DNA from: an uncultured Candidatus Saccharibacteria bacterium
GTDB taxonomy: Bacteria; Patescibacteriota; Saccharimonadia; Saccharimonadales; Saccharimonadaceae
Assembly (NCBI GenBank): GCA_947428935.1
Contig: CANENS010000011.1
Coordinates: 1 to 51,195 of the forward strand
Reading direction: 5' to 3'
DNA length: 51,195 nucleotides
Shown: in pieces, positions 28,438-34,650 of the stretch
How the letters are laid out: each line of letters opens with the position of its first letter
Numbering within the stretch: position 1 is the first letter of the stretch
Notes under the pieces: generated by a model
The model's database searches: none
What the model was told of the DNA's origin: nothing
The model's input: only the letters and a program-made list of their open reading frames with translations
Program-made: the position numbers and the translations under genes

Positions 28438-29448
28438 CTAAATTTCCATGCCGCGGCTTTTTTGCAAGTAATTGATGGTGTCGCGCATAGCGTCCGCGAT
28501 TCCCAACTCGGTTTTCCAATCCAAATCCCGCTCGGCTTTACTCGGATCCGCGAAAAACTCCGGTAAATCACCAGCACGACGCGCCACAATCTTGTGTGGC
28601 AGAAGCCTTCCGCTTACTTCGGAAAAAGCCTTTACGATTTCGAGCACTGAAGTCGCTTTGCCTGAACCGAGATTATAAACTTGAGTACCTTTCTGGAGAT
28701 GGTTAAGTGCAGCGAGATGACCCTTTGCGAGATCAACGACGTGGATATAATCACGTAAGCAAGTACCGTCCGGAGTCGGATAGTCGTTTCCAAAAATCGA
28801 GAGTTCCGGGATCTCGCCGGTAGCCACTTTCATGACAAAGGGCATCAGATTATTCGGCTTTCCATTCGGGTTTTCGCCCAACAAGCCCGACGGATGTGCT
28901 CCAACTGGGTTGAAATAGCGCAGAATAGTCACCTCAAAATCCGGATCGCTTTTTGCTACGTCCATTAGCATACGTTCAATAAAATACTTCGTCCAACCGT
29001 AGGGGCTCGAAATCGTTACGCCGGTGGTCATAGTTTCGACGTATTGCGGGGTGTCTTGCTCGCCATAAACCGTGGCTGACGAAGAAAAGACGATTTTGTG
29101 CACGCCAAATTCTTGCATGCACTCCAATAGATTAATCGTGCTGCCGACGTTATTTTCGTAATATTCCAAAGGTTTCTCCACTGACTCGCCGACCGCTTTC
29201 AGGCCGGCGAAGTGAATTACGGCGTCGAAATTACTGTCTTGGAAAACTCCAGCTAGCGCTTCAGCATCGCGCAGATCAACTTCGTGAAATTTCGGTTTGA
29301 CGCCAGTCAGCTCTTCGATCGTATCGAGTACGCTTTTTTGACTATTATATAAATTGTCGAGAATTTCGACTTCATAGCCGGCCTCAATCAATTCCACTAC
29401 CGTATGTGAACCGATATAGCCCGTCCCGCCCGTCACTAAAATTTTCAT
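28438..29448 (-). CDS. galE: UDP-glucose 4-epimerase
   Basis: 336 aa from ATG 29448, with GGAGGA upstream. Extended SDR features: MKILVTGGTGYIGSHTVVEL (Rossmann), HFAGLKAVGESVEKPLEYY, the catalytic SSSATVYG Ser/Thr and SPYGWTKYFIE Tyr-x3-Lys, and the GalE-type NPVGAHPSGLLGE and RAGDLPEFFADPSKAERDL ends. It interconverts UDP-glucose and UDP-galactose, giving the substrate for glf. It stands alone on the minus strand inside a plus-strand glycan locus. A 56-residue out-of-frame tail just downstream (28274-28437) looks like non-functional sequence. Confidence 0.95.
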   Translation of the reverse strand: MKILVTGGTGYIGSHTVVELIEAGYEVEILDNLYNSQKSVLDTIEELTGVKPKFHEVDLRDAEALAGVFQDSNFDAVIHFAGLKAVGESVEKPLEYYENNVGSTINLLECMQEFGVHKIVFSSSATVYGEQDTPQYVETMTTGVTISSPYGWTKYFIERMLMDVAKSDPDFEVTILRYFNPVGAHPSGLLGENPNGKPNNLMPFVMKVATGEIPELSIFGNDYPTPDGTCLRDYIHVVDLAKGHLAALNHLQKGTQVYNLGSGKATSVLEIVKAFSEVSGRLLPHKIVARRAGDLPEFFADPSKAERDLDWKTELGIADAMRDTINYLQKSRGMEI

Positions 29449-29613
29449 ATTTTCCTCCACTGCTTAAAATTTGTACCCCTATCATATCAGCCCGTTCTCT
29501 AAAAAACAACCACAAGACATTTGATGCTAGTAGCGGAACTAAGGCTATAACGTCCATTTTGGGTGCGTTTACGCTAATTAATTGCTGTTCTGAGGTTAAT
29601 ACCAGCCGAACTA

Positions 29614-29642
29614 TTGACTTTTTGGATGATGTGTGCTATAAT
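29614..29642 (+). promoter_or_regulatory. Strong extended -10 promoter of the second glycan operon
   Basis: TTGACT (29614-29619), 17-bp spacer, TGC-TATAAT (29637-29642). Very similar to the T4SS operon promoter at 2714, including ATGTGTGCTATAAT. A leader of about 110 nt precedes the ATG at 29760. Confidence 0.85.
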
Positions 29643-29759
29643 AGAAAGATAGGGGTGGTTTTTTATCATAAAACCTGCTACAATGGCTAGGAAACGAGTT
29701 TTTATCTGATTTTGCGGGTGGTGAGCAGGGAAGAGCTAAAATAGTATTATTTTGTTGTT

Positions 29760-31184
29760 ATGAAAAAAGACGTCGGGCTAATTTTCCATATTTTCTTAAT
29801 CCTGGGCGATGCGTGCTCAGTTTTATTGTCTTTTTTGGTGGCTTATTTGGTGCGCATACATCTTGACCAGCGACCGTTCTATTTTGAGGCTAATCCGCGC
29901 ACCTTCGTCTTTTCAGTGGCGTTGTTTTTGCCGCTTTATATTCTGGTTCTGGCTGTTTCGGGACTATATAAAAAATCCATTTTCTTGAATCAAAGCCGCT
30001 GGTCCGAGGTCGGCCGGCTTTTTCTAGCTTCAGTGATTGGTGTCATGGCGATTATTACTTATGACTTTTTCTTTGAGATTGACCTCTTTCCAGTCCGGGT
30101 TATGGCGTTATATGCCGTTATCTCATGTTTTTGTTTTCTTTGTCTGTTTCGTGGCGTGGTGCGGGGAATTCGGGCGTTGATCCTGCGCCGCCGCCGGACC
30201 TTGCTACGTGCGGTCATCATTGGGAACAATCCAAATACCGAATATTTGGCGAATTATATCGGTGGCTTTCCGGAATCCGGTTATGGTGTGGTGGGTGTAG
30301 TCGCCGGGGCAAAATATATTCCAAAAGATTTGCGGCGTAAGCAGTATTCTTCGCTCAAGGAAGCTCTGAAACGGGCGAAACCCGATGTGATTTTTCAGAC
30401 CGATGATAAGCGTACCGAATATGTTTATCGTCAAGCTGTGGAGCGTCACTTGCTATACTATTTTGTGCCGTCGAACGCCGCGCTCTCTTCTCAGATGGGT
30501 GAGCTGGAATTAATCGGTAATACCCCGGCCATTTTAGTCCGCACGACACCTTTGATCGGCAGCATGAAAATCGTTAAACGGCTTTGTGATATTGTCTTTA
30601 GCGCTTTAGCCTTGATTGTGGCGGCAATCCCGATGTTGATTATCTGGACGATTGAAAAAATCTCCGATCCGAAGGCGCCGGCTTTTTACGCCGAGACGCG
30701 GCTTTCGCGCTATAATCGTCATTTTAAGATCTATAAGTTTCGCTCTATGAAAACCGAGTACTGCGGTATGTCGCCGGAAGAAGCTTTTCGGAAGATGAAA
30801 AAGCCGCAACTGATTGAAAAATATCGCAAGAACGGCGATAAGCTGCCGAACGATCCGCGGATCACGCGGCTGGGGCGATTTTTGCGCGCGACTTCGCTGG
30901 ACGAGCTGCCGCAGCTTTGGAACGTTCTCAAGGGTGATATTTCTTTAGTTGGACCGCGTGCTTTGGTTCCGGGCGAATTGCATCACTACGGCGATCGCTC
31001 CTTGCTCTTATCAGTGAAGTCTGGCTTGACTGGGCTAGCGCAAGTTTCGGGTCGCCGCGATATTTCTTTTGAAGAGCGTCGCGCGCTTGATATATATTAT
31101 ATTCAGAATTGGTCGATGTGGCTGGATTTTCGAATTCTGGTTCGGACGGTCGGCGCAGTATTATTACATAAAGGAGCTCAATAA
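29760..31184 (+). CDS. Polyprenyl-phosphate sugar phosphotransferase (WcaJ/WbaP-like)
   Basis: 474 aa. N-terminal four to five transmembrane helices, a CoA-binding-like middle ([17 protein letters not shown]), a further helix (~280-300), and the Bac_transf catalytic domain: [46 protein letters not shown] and [15 protein letters not shown]. It starts glycan assembly by moving a sugar-1-phosphate from a UDP-sugar to undecaprenyl phosphate at the inner membrane. First of three contiguous genes. Confidence 0.92.
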
Positions 31185-32615
31185 ATGTCTGACTCTCAGA
31201 GACTTTCGCAAAAAACTAATCAGAAGGCAGAGGAATCCGCTGCTACAGCAAAAGCTCCGAAGGTGGCGTTGGTTTGCGATTGGCTGACCACTCCGGGTGG
31301 AGCTGAAAAAGTCTTGCTGGAGCTGCATCAAATGTACCCCCAGGCGCCGATTTATACTTCGCAATATCGACCGAAGAAGATTGACTGGTTTGATGACGCG
31401 GAGGTGAAGACCGGTTGGCTACAAATTTTCCCAGTCTTTTTGCGTAAAATGCTGGGGCCACTGCGGCAGCTCTATTTTTCGCACCTCGACTTGTCTGATT
31501 ATGATTTAGTGATTTCAGTGACCGGGGCCGAGGCCAAAGCAGTCAAAACCAAGAAGAACCTCGACCAGAAAGAGGGCCTATCTTCTCATTATAGCACACA
31601 TGAGCAAAAAAGTCAAGAGGAAAATGCTCAAAAGGGCAATTCTAACCAAAAAAATGCCGAAAATTCGGAGCGAAAAGGAGCCTTTCATGTCTGTTATTGC
31701 CACGTTCCAACCCAATATTATTGGCAATTTTATGATCGCTATATGGAGAATCCAGGCTTCGGGATCTTAAATCCGCTTTTCCGCCTCGGTTTACGGGTGT
31801 TGTCGAAGCCTTTGCGGCGAGCGGATTATCGCGCTGCACGCCGTCCTGATCAATTCGTGGCAATTTCGAGTTATGCTGCTCGCCAAATTCGTAAATATTA
31901 TGATCGTTCTTCGGTAGTGATCGCACCTCCAGTCGCGGTGGGGAATTTTCGGCCGCAAGAGGTGGACGACCGAGGCGGCTTTGTGATTTCTTGTCGCCAG
32001 GTGTCGTGGAAGCGGGTTGACTTAGCGATTAAGGCCTGTCTTGCTACCGGTAATCAACTGACCGTGATCGGTGACGGTCCCGAGCATAATCGTTTACGCG
32101 ATCTGGCTGACGGGTCTTTTCTGATCAAATTCGTGCCATGGCTGAGTACGGAGCGGTTAACCGAATATCTTTGCACGGCTGAGGGTTACATTTTTCCGAG
32201 TATCGAGCCATTTGGGATCGCTCCAGTCGAAGCTTTAGCTGCGGGCTGTCCGGTAGTAGCTTACGGCCGAGGCGGTAGCCGCGATTTCGTGGAGGCAGGG
32301 AAGAACGGAATTTTCTTTGGCGAGCAAACCGTCGAATCATTGGTTTCCGCTTTGGAAGATTTTGAGCAATACGATTTTGATGAACAGATTGTCTCGGCTA
32401 CCGCGCAAAAATTCTCGCCGGAACGTTTTCGTGGGGAAATTGTTGATCTGATTCTTGAATGTATTGGTACAAAACTTGAGCCAGTGGTCGTAAAAGTTCC
32501 CGAAGCTCAGCCTCAGCCGAAAGGGTTCGACCAAGACAAACAACCGAAGGCGCGAAAACCGTTACCTCTACCAGCAAAGGGTGTTATAATAGATTTAGAT
32601 GCGGAGGAAAAATAG
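31185..32615 (+). CDS. GT4 family glycosyltransferase with an inserted low-complexity loop
   Basis: 476 aa, start directly after the previous stop with GGAG upstream. GT-B/GT4 features: KVALVCDWLTTPGGAEKVLLEL (~residues 25-46), HVCYCHVPTQYYWQFYDRY, VISCRQVSWKRVDLAIKA, the PFGIAPVEALAAGCPVVAYGRGG acceptor-proximal EX7E segment and a Lys/Pro-rich tail. Between AEAKAVKT and HVCYCH, normally adjacent in this family, lies a ~45-residue Gln/Glu/Asn/Lys/Ser insert (~residues 120-165). Its DNA carries an antisense promoter copy. Likely a mannosyl- or related transferase; donor unknown. Confidence 0.88.
   Translation: MSDSQRLSQKTNQKAEESAATAKAPKVALVCDWLTTPGGAEKVLLELHQMYPQAPIYTSQYRPKKIDWFDDAEVKTGWLQIFPVFLRKMLGPLRQLYFSHLDLSDYDLVISVTGAEAKAVKTKKNLDQKEGLSSHYSTHEQKSQEENAQKGNSNQKNAENSERKGAFHVCYCHVPTQYYWQFYDRYMENPGFGILNPLFRLGLRVLSKPLRRADYRAARRPDQFVAISSYAARQIRKYYDRSSVVIAPPVAVGNFRPQEVDDRGGFVISCRQVSWKRVDLAIKACLATGNQLTVIGDGPEHNRLRDLADGSFLIKFVPWLSTERLTEYLCTAEGYIFPSIEPFGIAPVEALAAGCPVVAYGRGGSRDFVEAGKNGIFFGEQTVESLVSALEDFEQYDFDEQIVSATAQKFSPERFRGEIVDLILECIGTKLEPVVVKVPEAQPQPKGFDQDKQPKARKPLPLPAKGVIIDLDAEEK
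31589..31617 (-). promoter_or_regulatory. Antisense promoter-like element inside the GT4 gene
   Basis: On the minus strand TTGACT, a 17-bp spacer and TATAAT preceded by TGTGC, a full match to the window's common promoter. It lies in the low-complexity insert of the GT4 gene and points upstream; no minus-strand gene follows. Confidence 0.6.
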
Positions 32616-34332
32616 TAATCAGCGGCATGAAGCCCCAATTTGCTCAATCTTGAGCAAGATTTTGATTTTGTTACTTTTATTGTCGCCGATCGTACCGTTT
32701 TTCTCATACTATCCGGTTATGAAGCTGGGTGCCGATCGCTCGATGAATTTCGAGTTATCTTTGCCTCTGATCTGGCTGGTGATTTTTGACGCAGTTGCGT
32801 TTGCGACTTTGGCGGCGCTTGGGCTGTCGAAAACTCGCTTTAAGTCGTTAAGGCAAAATGGTAGCTTTTGGGGGCCGAATCTTCCCGGTATTAGCGACCG
32901 CCGAATTTTTCTCTTGACGCTATTTCCATTCTGGGCTACGATTTCGATTCTGTGGTCCGATAATCCGCTACGCGGGATTTTGACCGCGAGCATTATTTGG
33001 TTATTATGGTTTGCGATTTTTGCGATCATTAGCCTGCTTCCGGTGGTCTTGTTGCCTCTATCAGTGCAGGGTAAACCAGCTTCAGTACGGAATAAATCTG
33101 CGAGTTCCTCGAGAAAAGCTACTATTGTCAACAAGCCGACTAGCTGCGCTCCTGCGCAAAAACTTAAGTATATTCTCTTGATCATCTTTTTAACAACTAG
33201 CGTTTTAGTATCGGCTTTTTGTTGGCTGCAGGCTATCTTGGACGCGATTGGCCTGGCGAGGACCGATACTCTGCTTTGCGCGGGCTGCACCTATCGTTCT
33301 TTCGGTTTTCCGCACCCTTCGGGCTTCGCGATCGAACCTCAGTTCATGGGTAATTTGTTGCTGGCCCCTGTCCTGACTGCGCTCTTTTTGTCGGTTTGGC
33401 TTGGCGGTGAGTTGACTAAAGGGGAGCGTTGGCTTTTGAGGATTTGTGCTACTTTTCTAACTGCTACGCTCTTTTTCACTTTTTCGCGCGGCGCCATTTA
33501 CGCTTTTATGATTGCGCTCGTAATACTCCTAGTCTGGGCATTAGTGCAAAAGCGCCGGGAATCGGCTAAAGTCCAAAATTGGTTTGCTTTGCTGTCAATT
33601 CCGTTTATTGCTTTTGGTATTTCGCTGGGTGCGCAGGGGCTATTTGCGGAGTTTGGTCCTACTAGCGAGACTTTTGGCTCCGGCATTGCGAAATCGATTC
33701 ATCAACTTTCGCTAGGAATCATTGACCTACGTTCGTTGGCTAAAATGTCGAGCGCAAATTCGCCAGAGCAAGATGATGGTACGGTGACGGGGGGAGATGA
33801 GGTGGCTGCCGAGCCAGAGGAAGAGGCTTTTTTCGAAGGTTATGTCGCTGAATCGACCGACTATCGTCTGCTACTTAATCGGGTTGCTTGGAATCTCTGG
33901 CGATCAAGTCCTCAAAACATGCTTTTTGGCGTTGGTCTCGGTGCAGCAGGGACTGCTATGCATGAATTTTCTCCGTTCGAGGTCACTTCTCCGAAGGAAA
34001 TTGTCCAAAACGAAGCTTTTAGTATTTTGCTTGAGCTTGGTTTGGTTGGTATTGCGCTCTTAATTTTTGAATTTTTGGTTATTTTCTACCCGAAGCTCTT
34101 TTCGACCAAATTTCTGGATGGCCGTGCCGCGCAGGATGCCAAAGGGCAGGAAAGTTTTTGGTCGCACCCGGCGCTCCCTTTACTTGCTAGTTTGATTGTC
34201 GCTTATTTGATTACGCTTAACTTTTTCTCAGGGTTGCCAAATGCCCTCCAAATTTACCTCTTTCCGCCCCTCCTTTACTTTATCTTTAATAACTATAATC
34301 TCCAAAGTCAATCTGGTAAGAAGCGATCTTGA
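32599..34332 (+). CDS. O-antigen ligase/polymerase-like membrane protein
   Basis: 577 aa with about ten to twelve transmembrane helices. A FSRGAIYAFMIALVILLVW segment and a large extracytoplasmic loop (~residues 350-440, Glu-rich) fit the WaaL/Wzy-C topology, in which a periplasmic loop carries the active site. A polar Ser/Lys/Thr insert (~150-185) interrupts a cytoplasmic loop. It would polymerise or ligate lipid-linked glycan. The start overlaps the GT4 end by 17 bp; a TATAAT (32585-32590) lies eight bases before the ATG, so a leaderless transcript is possible as well as read-through. Confidence 0.75.
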   Translation: MRRKNSNQRHEAPICSILSKILILLLLLSPIVPFFSYYPVMKLGADRSMNFELSLPLIWLVIFDAVAFATLAALGLSKTRFKSLRQNGSFWGPNLPGISDRRIFLLTLFPFWATISILWSDNPLRGILTASIIWLLWFAIFAIISLLPVVLLPLSVQGKPASVRNKSASSSRKATIVNKPTSCAPAQKLKYILLIIFLTTSVLVSAFCWLQAILDAIGLARTDTLLCAGCTYRSFGFPHPSGFAIEPQFMGNLLLAPVLTALFLSVWLGGELTKGERWLLRICATFLTATLFFTFSRGAIYAFMIALVILLVWALVQKRRESAKVQNWFALLSIPFIAFGISLGAQGLFAEFGPTSETFGSGIAKSIHQLSLGIIDLRSLAKMSSANSPEQDDGTVTGGDEVAAEPEEEAFFEGYVAESTDYRLLLNRVAWNLWRSSPQNMLFGVGLGAAGTAMHEFSPFEVTSPKEIVQNEAFSILLELGLVGIALLIFEFLVIFYPKLFSTKFLDGRAAQDAKGQESFWSHPALPLLASLIVAYLITLNFFSGLPNALQIYLFPPLLYFIFNNYNLQSQSGKKRS

Positions 34333-34489: not shown

Positions 34490-34518
34490 TTGACTTTTAC
34501 AAAACGGTCATATATAAT
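34490..34518 (+). promoter_or_regulatory. Promoter of the initiator tRNA gene
   Basis: TTGACT (34490-34495), 17-bp spacer, TATAAT (34513-34518), predicting transcription from about 34525, four bases before the mature tRNA end. Confidence 0.85.
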
Positions 34519-34528
34519 GAATACATAT

Positions 34529-34605
34529 CGCGGGATAGAGCAGTCTGGTAGCTCGTTTGGCTCATAACCAAAAGGTCGTTGGTTCAAATCCAACTCCCGC
34601 AACCA
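34529..34605 (+). tRNA. Initiator tRNA-fMet (CAT)
   Basis: 77 nt with encoded CCA. Acceptor stem CGCGGGA/TCCCGCA has the C1·A72 mismatch that marks initiators. D-stem GAGC/GCTC includes A11-T24, also an initiator trait. Anticodon loop CTCATAA gives CAT. T-arm GTTGG-TTCAAAT-CCAAC is regular. The anticodon stem is TTTGG/CCAAA, so only two of the three G-C pairs normal for initiators are present. Promoter and terminator flank it closely, so it is a single-gene unit. Confidence 0.95.
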
Positions 34606-34650
34606 AAATGAGGATATGTCGCCCCCCCGACATATCCTCATTTTGTTATT
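34606..34650 (+). terminator. Strong intrinsic terminator after the tRNA
   Basis: Perfect 17-bp stem AAAATGAGGATATGTCG / CGACATATCCTCATTTT around a C-rich loop, then TTATT. Begins directly after the encoded CCA. Confidence 0.92.

Follow-up and report, generated by a model that had tools for sequence, protein, structure and literature searches.

Short DNA segments that lie in unrelated protein genes without breaking the frame, and are translated with them, are known as Rickettsia palindromic elements (RPEs), and dispersed DNA with sigma-70-like promoters able to act on neighbouring genes is known from the Correia elements, which are promoter-carrying MITEs (PMC10969869). A third comparison is offered by antisense promoters and excludons, in which a promoter within a gene is reported to face against that gene and a divergent gene lies further on. 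The locus analysed here lies in a window of 51,195 bp, which is contig C11 of the 1.10-Mb genome of an uncultured gut Candidatus Saccharibacteria bacterium (genome G000), where an in-frame insert in a glycosyltransferase gene carries a promoter on its opposite strand. Like the RPEs, this insert is short, in frame, translated and found in unrelated genes; the differences are that it is not palindromic (there are no inverted repeats of at least 8 nt in positions 31490-31730), that the part of it which recurs is a promoter, and that confident internal cases are limited to two gene families. With the Correia elements and MITEs it shares a sigma-70-like promoter on dispersed DNA, but no terminal inverted repeats were found at its borders, the promoter is of the host lineage's ordinary type, and it sits inside a coding sequence in antisense direction. 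The position within a gene, against its direction and with a divergent gene further on, is also that of the antisense promoters and excludons, except that the promoter here, a predicted one, brings its own in-frame protein insert. The literature searched, of which the coverage was partial, contains no description of a promoter insert or of a dispersed structured element in Saccharibacteria.

The host gene (31185..32615, plus strand) encodes a GT4 glycosyltransferase of 476 amino acids, whose Glycos_transf_1 domain scores 75.4 bits in Pfam (cut-off 26.4). GT4-type relatives of the GT-B fold with solved structures exist, from which the window protein differs in having an additional loop, predicted to be disordered, between the motifs GAEAK and YCHVPTQ; the AlphaFold2 model of the whole protein has a mean pLDDT of 82. 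Homologues are present in 144/147 genomes of the genus, and several of the relatives in GTDB come from sheep jejunum, all being uncultured Candidatus Saccharibacteria. In the operon, the gene is preceded by that of a priming bacterial sugar transferase (29760..31184, plus strand; Pfam Bac_transf, 201 bits) and followed by that of a Wzy_C/O-antigen ligase-like protein (32599..34332, plus strand; Pfam Wzy_C, 45.7 bits, cut-off 31.7), and a promoter of the same type as that in the insert stands ahead of all three (29614..29643, plus strand, 44.2 bits). Divergent from the operon is a gene for a galE-like epimerase (28438..29460, minus strand; Pfam Epimerase, 204 bits) with a weak extended -10 promoter of its own nearby. 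Further along the window, a tRNA-Met gene (34529-34605, in the region 34490-34645) has a TTGACT-17-TATAAT promoter directly 5′ and a long hairpin with a T-rich tail directly 3′.

The initial annotation had noted a low-complexity stretch of about 45 residues between two normally adjacent motifs of this enzyme, and alignment with the genus homologues bears this out: an in-frame insert of ~43 codons (31551..31679, plus strand, borders approximate) lies between GAEAK-AVKT and AFHVCYCHVPTQYYW, comprises about residues 123-165 and is rich in Q, E, N, K and S. The linker from GAEAK to YCHVPTQ has 53 residues in the window protein versus 10-14 in many homologues, and residues 129-159 have a pLDDT below 50 within an otherwise well-predicted fold. 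Across 132 distinct genus loops (106 + 26 in two rounds), linker lengths fall by lineage into classes of 10-14, 18-31 or 34-66 residues with unrelated sequences, which supports a discrete, lineage-specific insert beyond mere gradual growth of the loop, the course of events that the annotation had set against its own proposal. That proposal, the insertion of a small element, stands in part: the insert is discrete, it has a clean parallel in DNA ligase and the same loop is filled by a repeat in G040, a near relative, but a mobile element with ends is not supported for the promoter segment. As to the target duplications that might have accompanied insertion, no direct repeat of at least 8 nt flanks the borders, and shorter duplications and the comparison with empty sites are blurred by saturated divergence. 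Nor did a search of the genome for the whole segment of ~130 bp give a second copy; a 151-bp query had 30 further matches, nearly always over the ~40-bp promoter part alone. No Rfam match lies near the insert. The promoter segment was thus rejected as a mobile element with ends, having no inverted repeats, no direct repeats of at least 8 nt at its borders and an ordinary promoter sequence.

The promoter core, TTGACTTTTTTGCTCATGTGTGCTATAATG, occupies 31587..31616 on the minus strand, with the -35 at 31616-31611, the -10 at 31593-31588, a 17-nt spacer and an extended -10, and scores 47.4 bits with a PWM built from the G000 sites, the window site itself included. Its hexamers, TTGACT-17-TATAAT, give 11/12 matches, and the spacer is within the 16-18 nt of the sigma-70 type. 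The minus-strand promoter had previously been described as TTGACT-N17-TGTGC-TATAAT; it is there, but TGTGC lies directly 5′ of the -10 as the end of the 17-nt spacer and had been counted twice. Upstream of the -35 are phased T-tracts resembling an UP element (31617..31679, minus strand), opposite the codons of the Q/E/N/K stretch. Their AT profile correlates with that of 46 other copies of the promoter (r = 0.50, with 0.0002 of shuffles equally high), the upstream phasing of the copy in the ligase gene gives r = 0.49, and in the other copies the upstream A/T tracts are phased at 10.25 bp (0/500 shuffles as strong); we infer that the region acts as an UP element. On the sense strand the T-tracts read as A-tracts, whose codons are those of K, N, Q and E, and the low-complexity peptide is a shadow of the upstream region of the promoter. 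On the other side of the -10, the segment GAGAAGATAGG (31576..31586, minus strand), placed with a profile of 50 copies, holds the predicted transcription start and resembles GGAAAGATAGGG, which is conserved after the -10 in other copies; it is common to G000 and the related genome G173, and G024 has TAGAAGATGG. Terminator-like sites on the minus strand are weak. A gene on the antisense strand was rejected, since the minus strand has no convincing ORF that begins directly 3′ of the promoter.

With exact spacing and at most 3 mismatches, the consensus occurs at 54 sites in G000 versus 0 for a reversed control, and it is present in 127/144 genomes of the genus. Among 52 sites whose context was checked, 19 lie upstream of an ORF, 13 within some ORF of at least 100 aa (many of them touching just the end of an ORF or a frame of doubtful status) and 20 in other positions. 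From these numbers and contexts, the promoter is evidently the lineage's ordinary strong promoter type, most checked copies of which lie outside genes. Chance is no explanation, given the 54 sites against none and the 47.4 bits of the window site, compared with -4.4 or less in 127 of the 132 GT4 loops. Numerous intragenic copies were considered and rejected: seven loci with weaker matches in large frames gave 0 convincing internal cases, as the promoter is 5′ of the likely start in G153 and G013:C6, the frames look spurious in G013:C8, G058 and G041, and an in-frame antisense match was absent from G144 and G040, both strong candidates. Among the matches examined, clearly internal copies are thus rare and confined to GT4 and ligA. 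The same antisense promoter is found in another reading frame in long N-terminal extensions of FemAB (L188:1235-2635) and NifU/IscU (L056:1418-2152) of G000; since these extensions lie before the conserved domains and could be either coding sequence or intergenic DNA on the 5′ side, the two copies cannot be called intragenic. Elsewhere in G000 (L192, contig C5, 3707 and 5726), two identical promoters of this type face each other ~2 kb apart within an exact 211-bp inverted repeat.

A search of the relatives, where absence of the promoter would have refuted the annotation's proposal, revealed it in the same loop of four of them. The five promoter-bearing loops score 47.4 (G000), 47.4 (G173), 39.3 (G058), 38.8 (G024) and 23.0 bits (G012), and nothing lies between these and the other 127. 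G000, G173, G024 and G012 share one reading frame for the promoter (HYSTHEQKSQE and relatives) and G058 has it in a different one (SLYHTSGKKSID), so that it is the DNA, not the peptide, that recurs. The genomes are partly incomplete, and misassembly is unlikely to have caused the pattern in five separate genomes. Moreover, one of the 54 copies in G000 lies in the gene for a 737-aa NAD-dependent DNA ligase (ligA), where a low-complexity in-frame insert with an antisense promoter is found in G000 (47.4 bits), G173 (42.6 bits) and G013 (44.0 bits), and 26 other LigA homologues have neither; insert and promoter form a clean plus/minus character, present together in 3 and missing together in 26. 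The ligase protein as a query recovers the GT4 insert (E = 1.3e-4), and the six strongest matches of a peptide-signature profile across the genus are all in GT4 and ligA, two unrelated protein genes with insertion in frame. The LigA insert (264-331) has a pLDDT below 50, in a model that is poor overall (pTM 0.44), and there is no Rfam match in the ligA region of G000.

Four-fold-degenerate sites have an identity of 0.11-0.40 between the compared genes, near saturation; for the pairs that share a frame, in ligA and within the GT4 clade of G000, G173 and G024, it is 0.29-0.38. Between the GT4 genes of G000 and G173, 27/30 promoter bases are kept, and between those of G000 and G024 25/30, and in neither pair does any 30-bp window of the gene keep more. 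The LigA pairs keep 27, 26 and 25 of the 30, where the G000-G173 promoter window is not unique (167th of 1946 windows) and conserved protein motifs elsewhere give windows equally high. Since the promoter is kept near neutral saturation, and is located in the least conserved part of both GT4 and LigA, selection on the DNA is favoured, but a common sequence that was inserted more than once, independently, could give the same picture.

Considering these data, we assume with a probability of about 0.55 that a segment carrying a promoter found its way into loops tolerant of insertions and has stayed there as a working antisense promoter, which probably reduces expression of its host gene or operon. 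The anatomy, the recurrence, the distribution in the lineage and a conservation beyond neutral expectation are established at the level of the sequence. The insert would be double-use DNA, the sense strand encoding a disordered GT4 loop and the opposite strand forming a complete strong promoter of the housekeeping type with phased upstream T-tracts, an extended -10 and a conserved start region. Most likely, a promoter-bearing intergenic stretch was copied into a loop tolerant of insertions, and in the same way into ligA. It would then most likely be retained because an antisense transcript, running through the 5′ portion of the GT4 gene and on into the preceding sugar transferase gene (29760..31184), could lower the expression of the polysaccharide operon via transcription interference or decay of double-stranded RNA. 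The recurring antisense promoter is probably maintained double-use DNA and not chance. We suggest tentatively that the genus keeps complete antisense promoters, UP region included, in frame in disordered loops of a glycosyltransferase and an essential DNA ligase, as dual-use sequence under selection at the DNA level. This is a concrete case of a strong promoter being translated, in which the opposite strand explains a low-complexity insert of a protein; in these genomes, inserts of this kind can mirror signals in the nucleic acid, which is checkable by comparing both strands. If the promoters are active, two core functions, the synthesis of surface polysaccharides and DNA ligation, would be under built-in antisense control, in a group of organisms where gene regulation has received little study.

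It is also conceivable, if rather unlikely, that the promoter sequence is copied round the genome and sometimes lands in tolerant loops, where it may fire and yet is unselected. The distribution is patchy: on a GT4 tree made without the loop, the trait needs five changes, at least two of them on well-supported branches (the trees are quick ones), and G040 and G131, the closest GT4 relatives, have no antisense promoter. Gains or transfers therefore recur, several gains or losses being needed, and recent recurrent gains could mimic conservation. Neutral copying also agrees with the decayed promoter copy of G012 (23 bits) and with a GT4 loop that takes up unrelated elements, such as the repeat that is dispersed in G040 and the palindrome shared by G131, G146 and G097. 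However, the sister ligA genes of G173 and G013 (support 95) have a four-fold identity of 0.36 and yet keep 26/30 promoter bases, in an insert of which the remainder is barely alignable. Excludon-like control, with the antisense RNA as a long leader of the divergent galE and with galE and the operon expressed in opposition, seems to us improbable. The gene order in G000 would fit antisense RNA running into galE, which begins ~2.1 kb downstream of the antisense promoter in the sense direction of its transcript, and there is no minus-strand promoter at 9/12 matches between galE and the insert; galE is divergent and upstream of the operon in G173, G024 and G058 as well. However, in G000 and G173 an extended -10 site belonging to galE itself stands 21-28 bp ahead of that gene, G131 and G040 share the gene order without the antisense promoter, and ligA has no comparable divergent neighbour. 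Point mutations in an A-rich loop, whether or not antisense transcription was selected for, are a very improbable source of the promoter. Although few changes can suffice to turn random sequences into active promoters (PMC5906472), and loop length classes occur without promoters, the 30-bp match is near-perfect and joined by phased tracts and a start-proximal match, and in ligA insert and promoter arrive together.

The insertion of the promoter segment is plausible because the GT4 loop accepts insertions of different kinds, such as the G040 element and a 26-bp palindrome. The element in the G040 loop, a close likeness to the RPEs, was found by BLAST at nine places in G040, seven in G131 and none in G000. 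Its copies lie either outside genes or in frame within those of Obg, Tgt and other proteins. All 16 copies examined have a 67-bp core with long complementary arms; in 25/25 further copies the complementarity of the arms is above all shuffles, and 15 of these lie deep inside ORFs of at least 200 aa. By covariance model, the element is present in 143/170 genomes of the genus and absent from G000. TTCGG-type repeats in other GT4 loops occur at one place per genome where found, and were rejected as dispersed elements. The genus-wide structured family to which the G040 loop (L303) belongs (L304-L310, L326-L332 and L339-L367) has a core of 66-67 bp and covarying hairpins (covariation score 0.328 versus 0.103 in shuffles), and many copies are in frame in core genes, for example those of Obg, Tgt and, apparently, aminoacyl-tRNA synthetases. 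No Rfam match was found in the loci searched. The family is like the RPEs, but its arms are copy-specific and differ strongly, with a left-arm identity of 0.37 in G040/G131 and 0.51 elsewhere; it is possibly more interesting than the promoter insert of the window. In addition, the 26-bp palindrome CGAACTTGTACAGNNTGTACAAGTTC, present in the GT4 loops of G146, G097 and G131, also occurs at a few other places in some genomes, including contigs C3 and C18 of G000.
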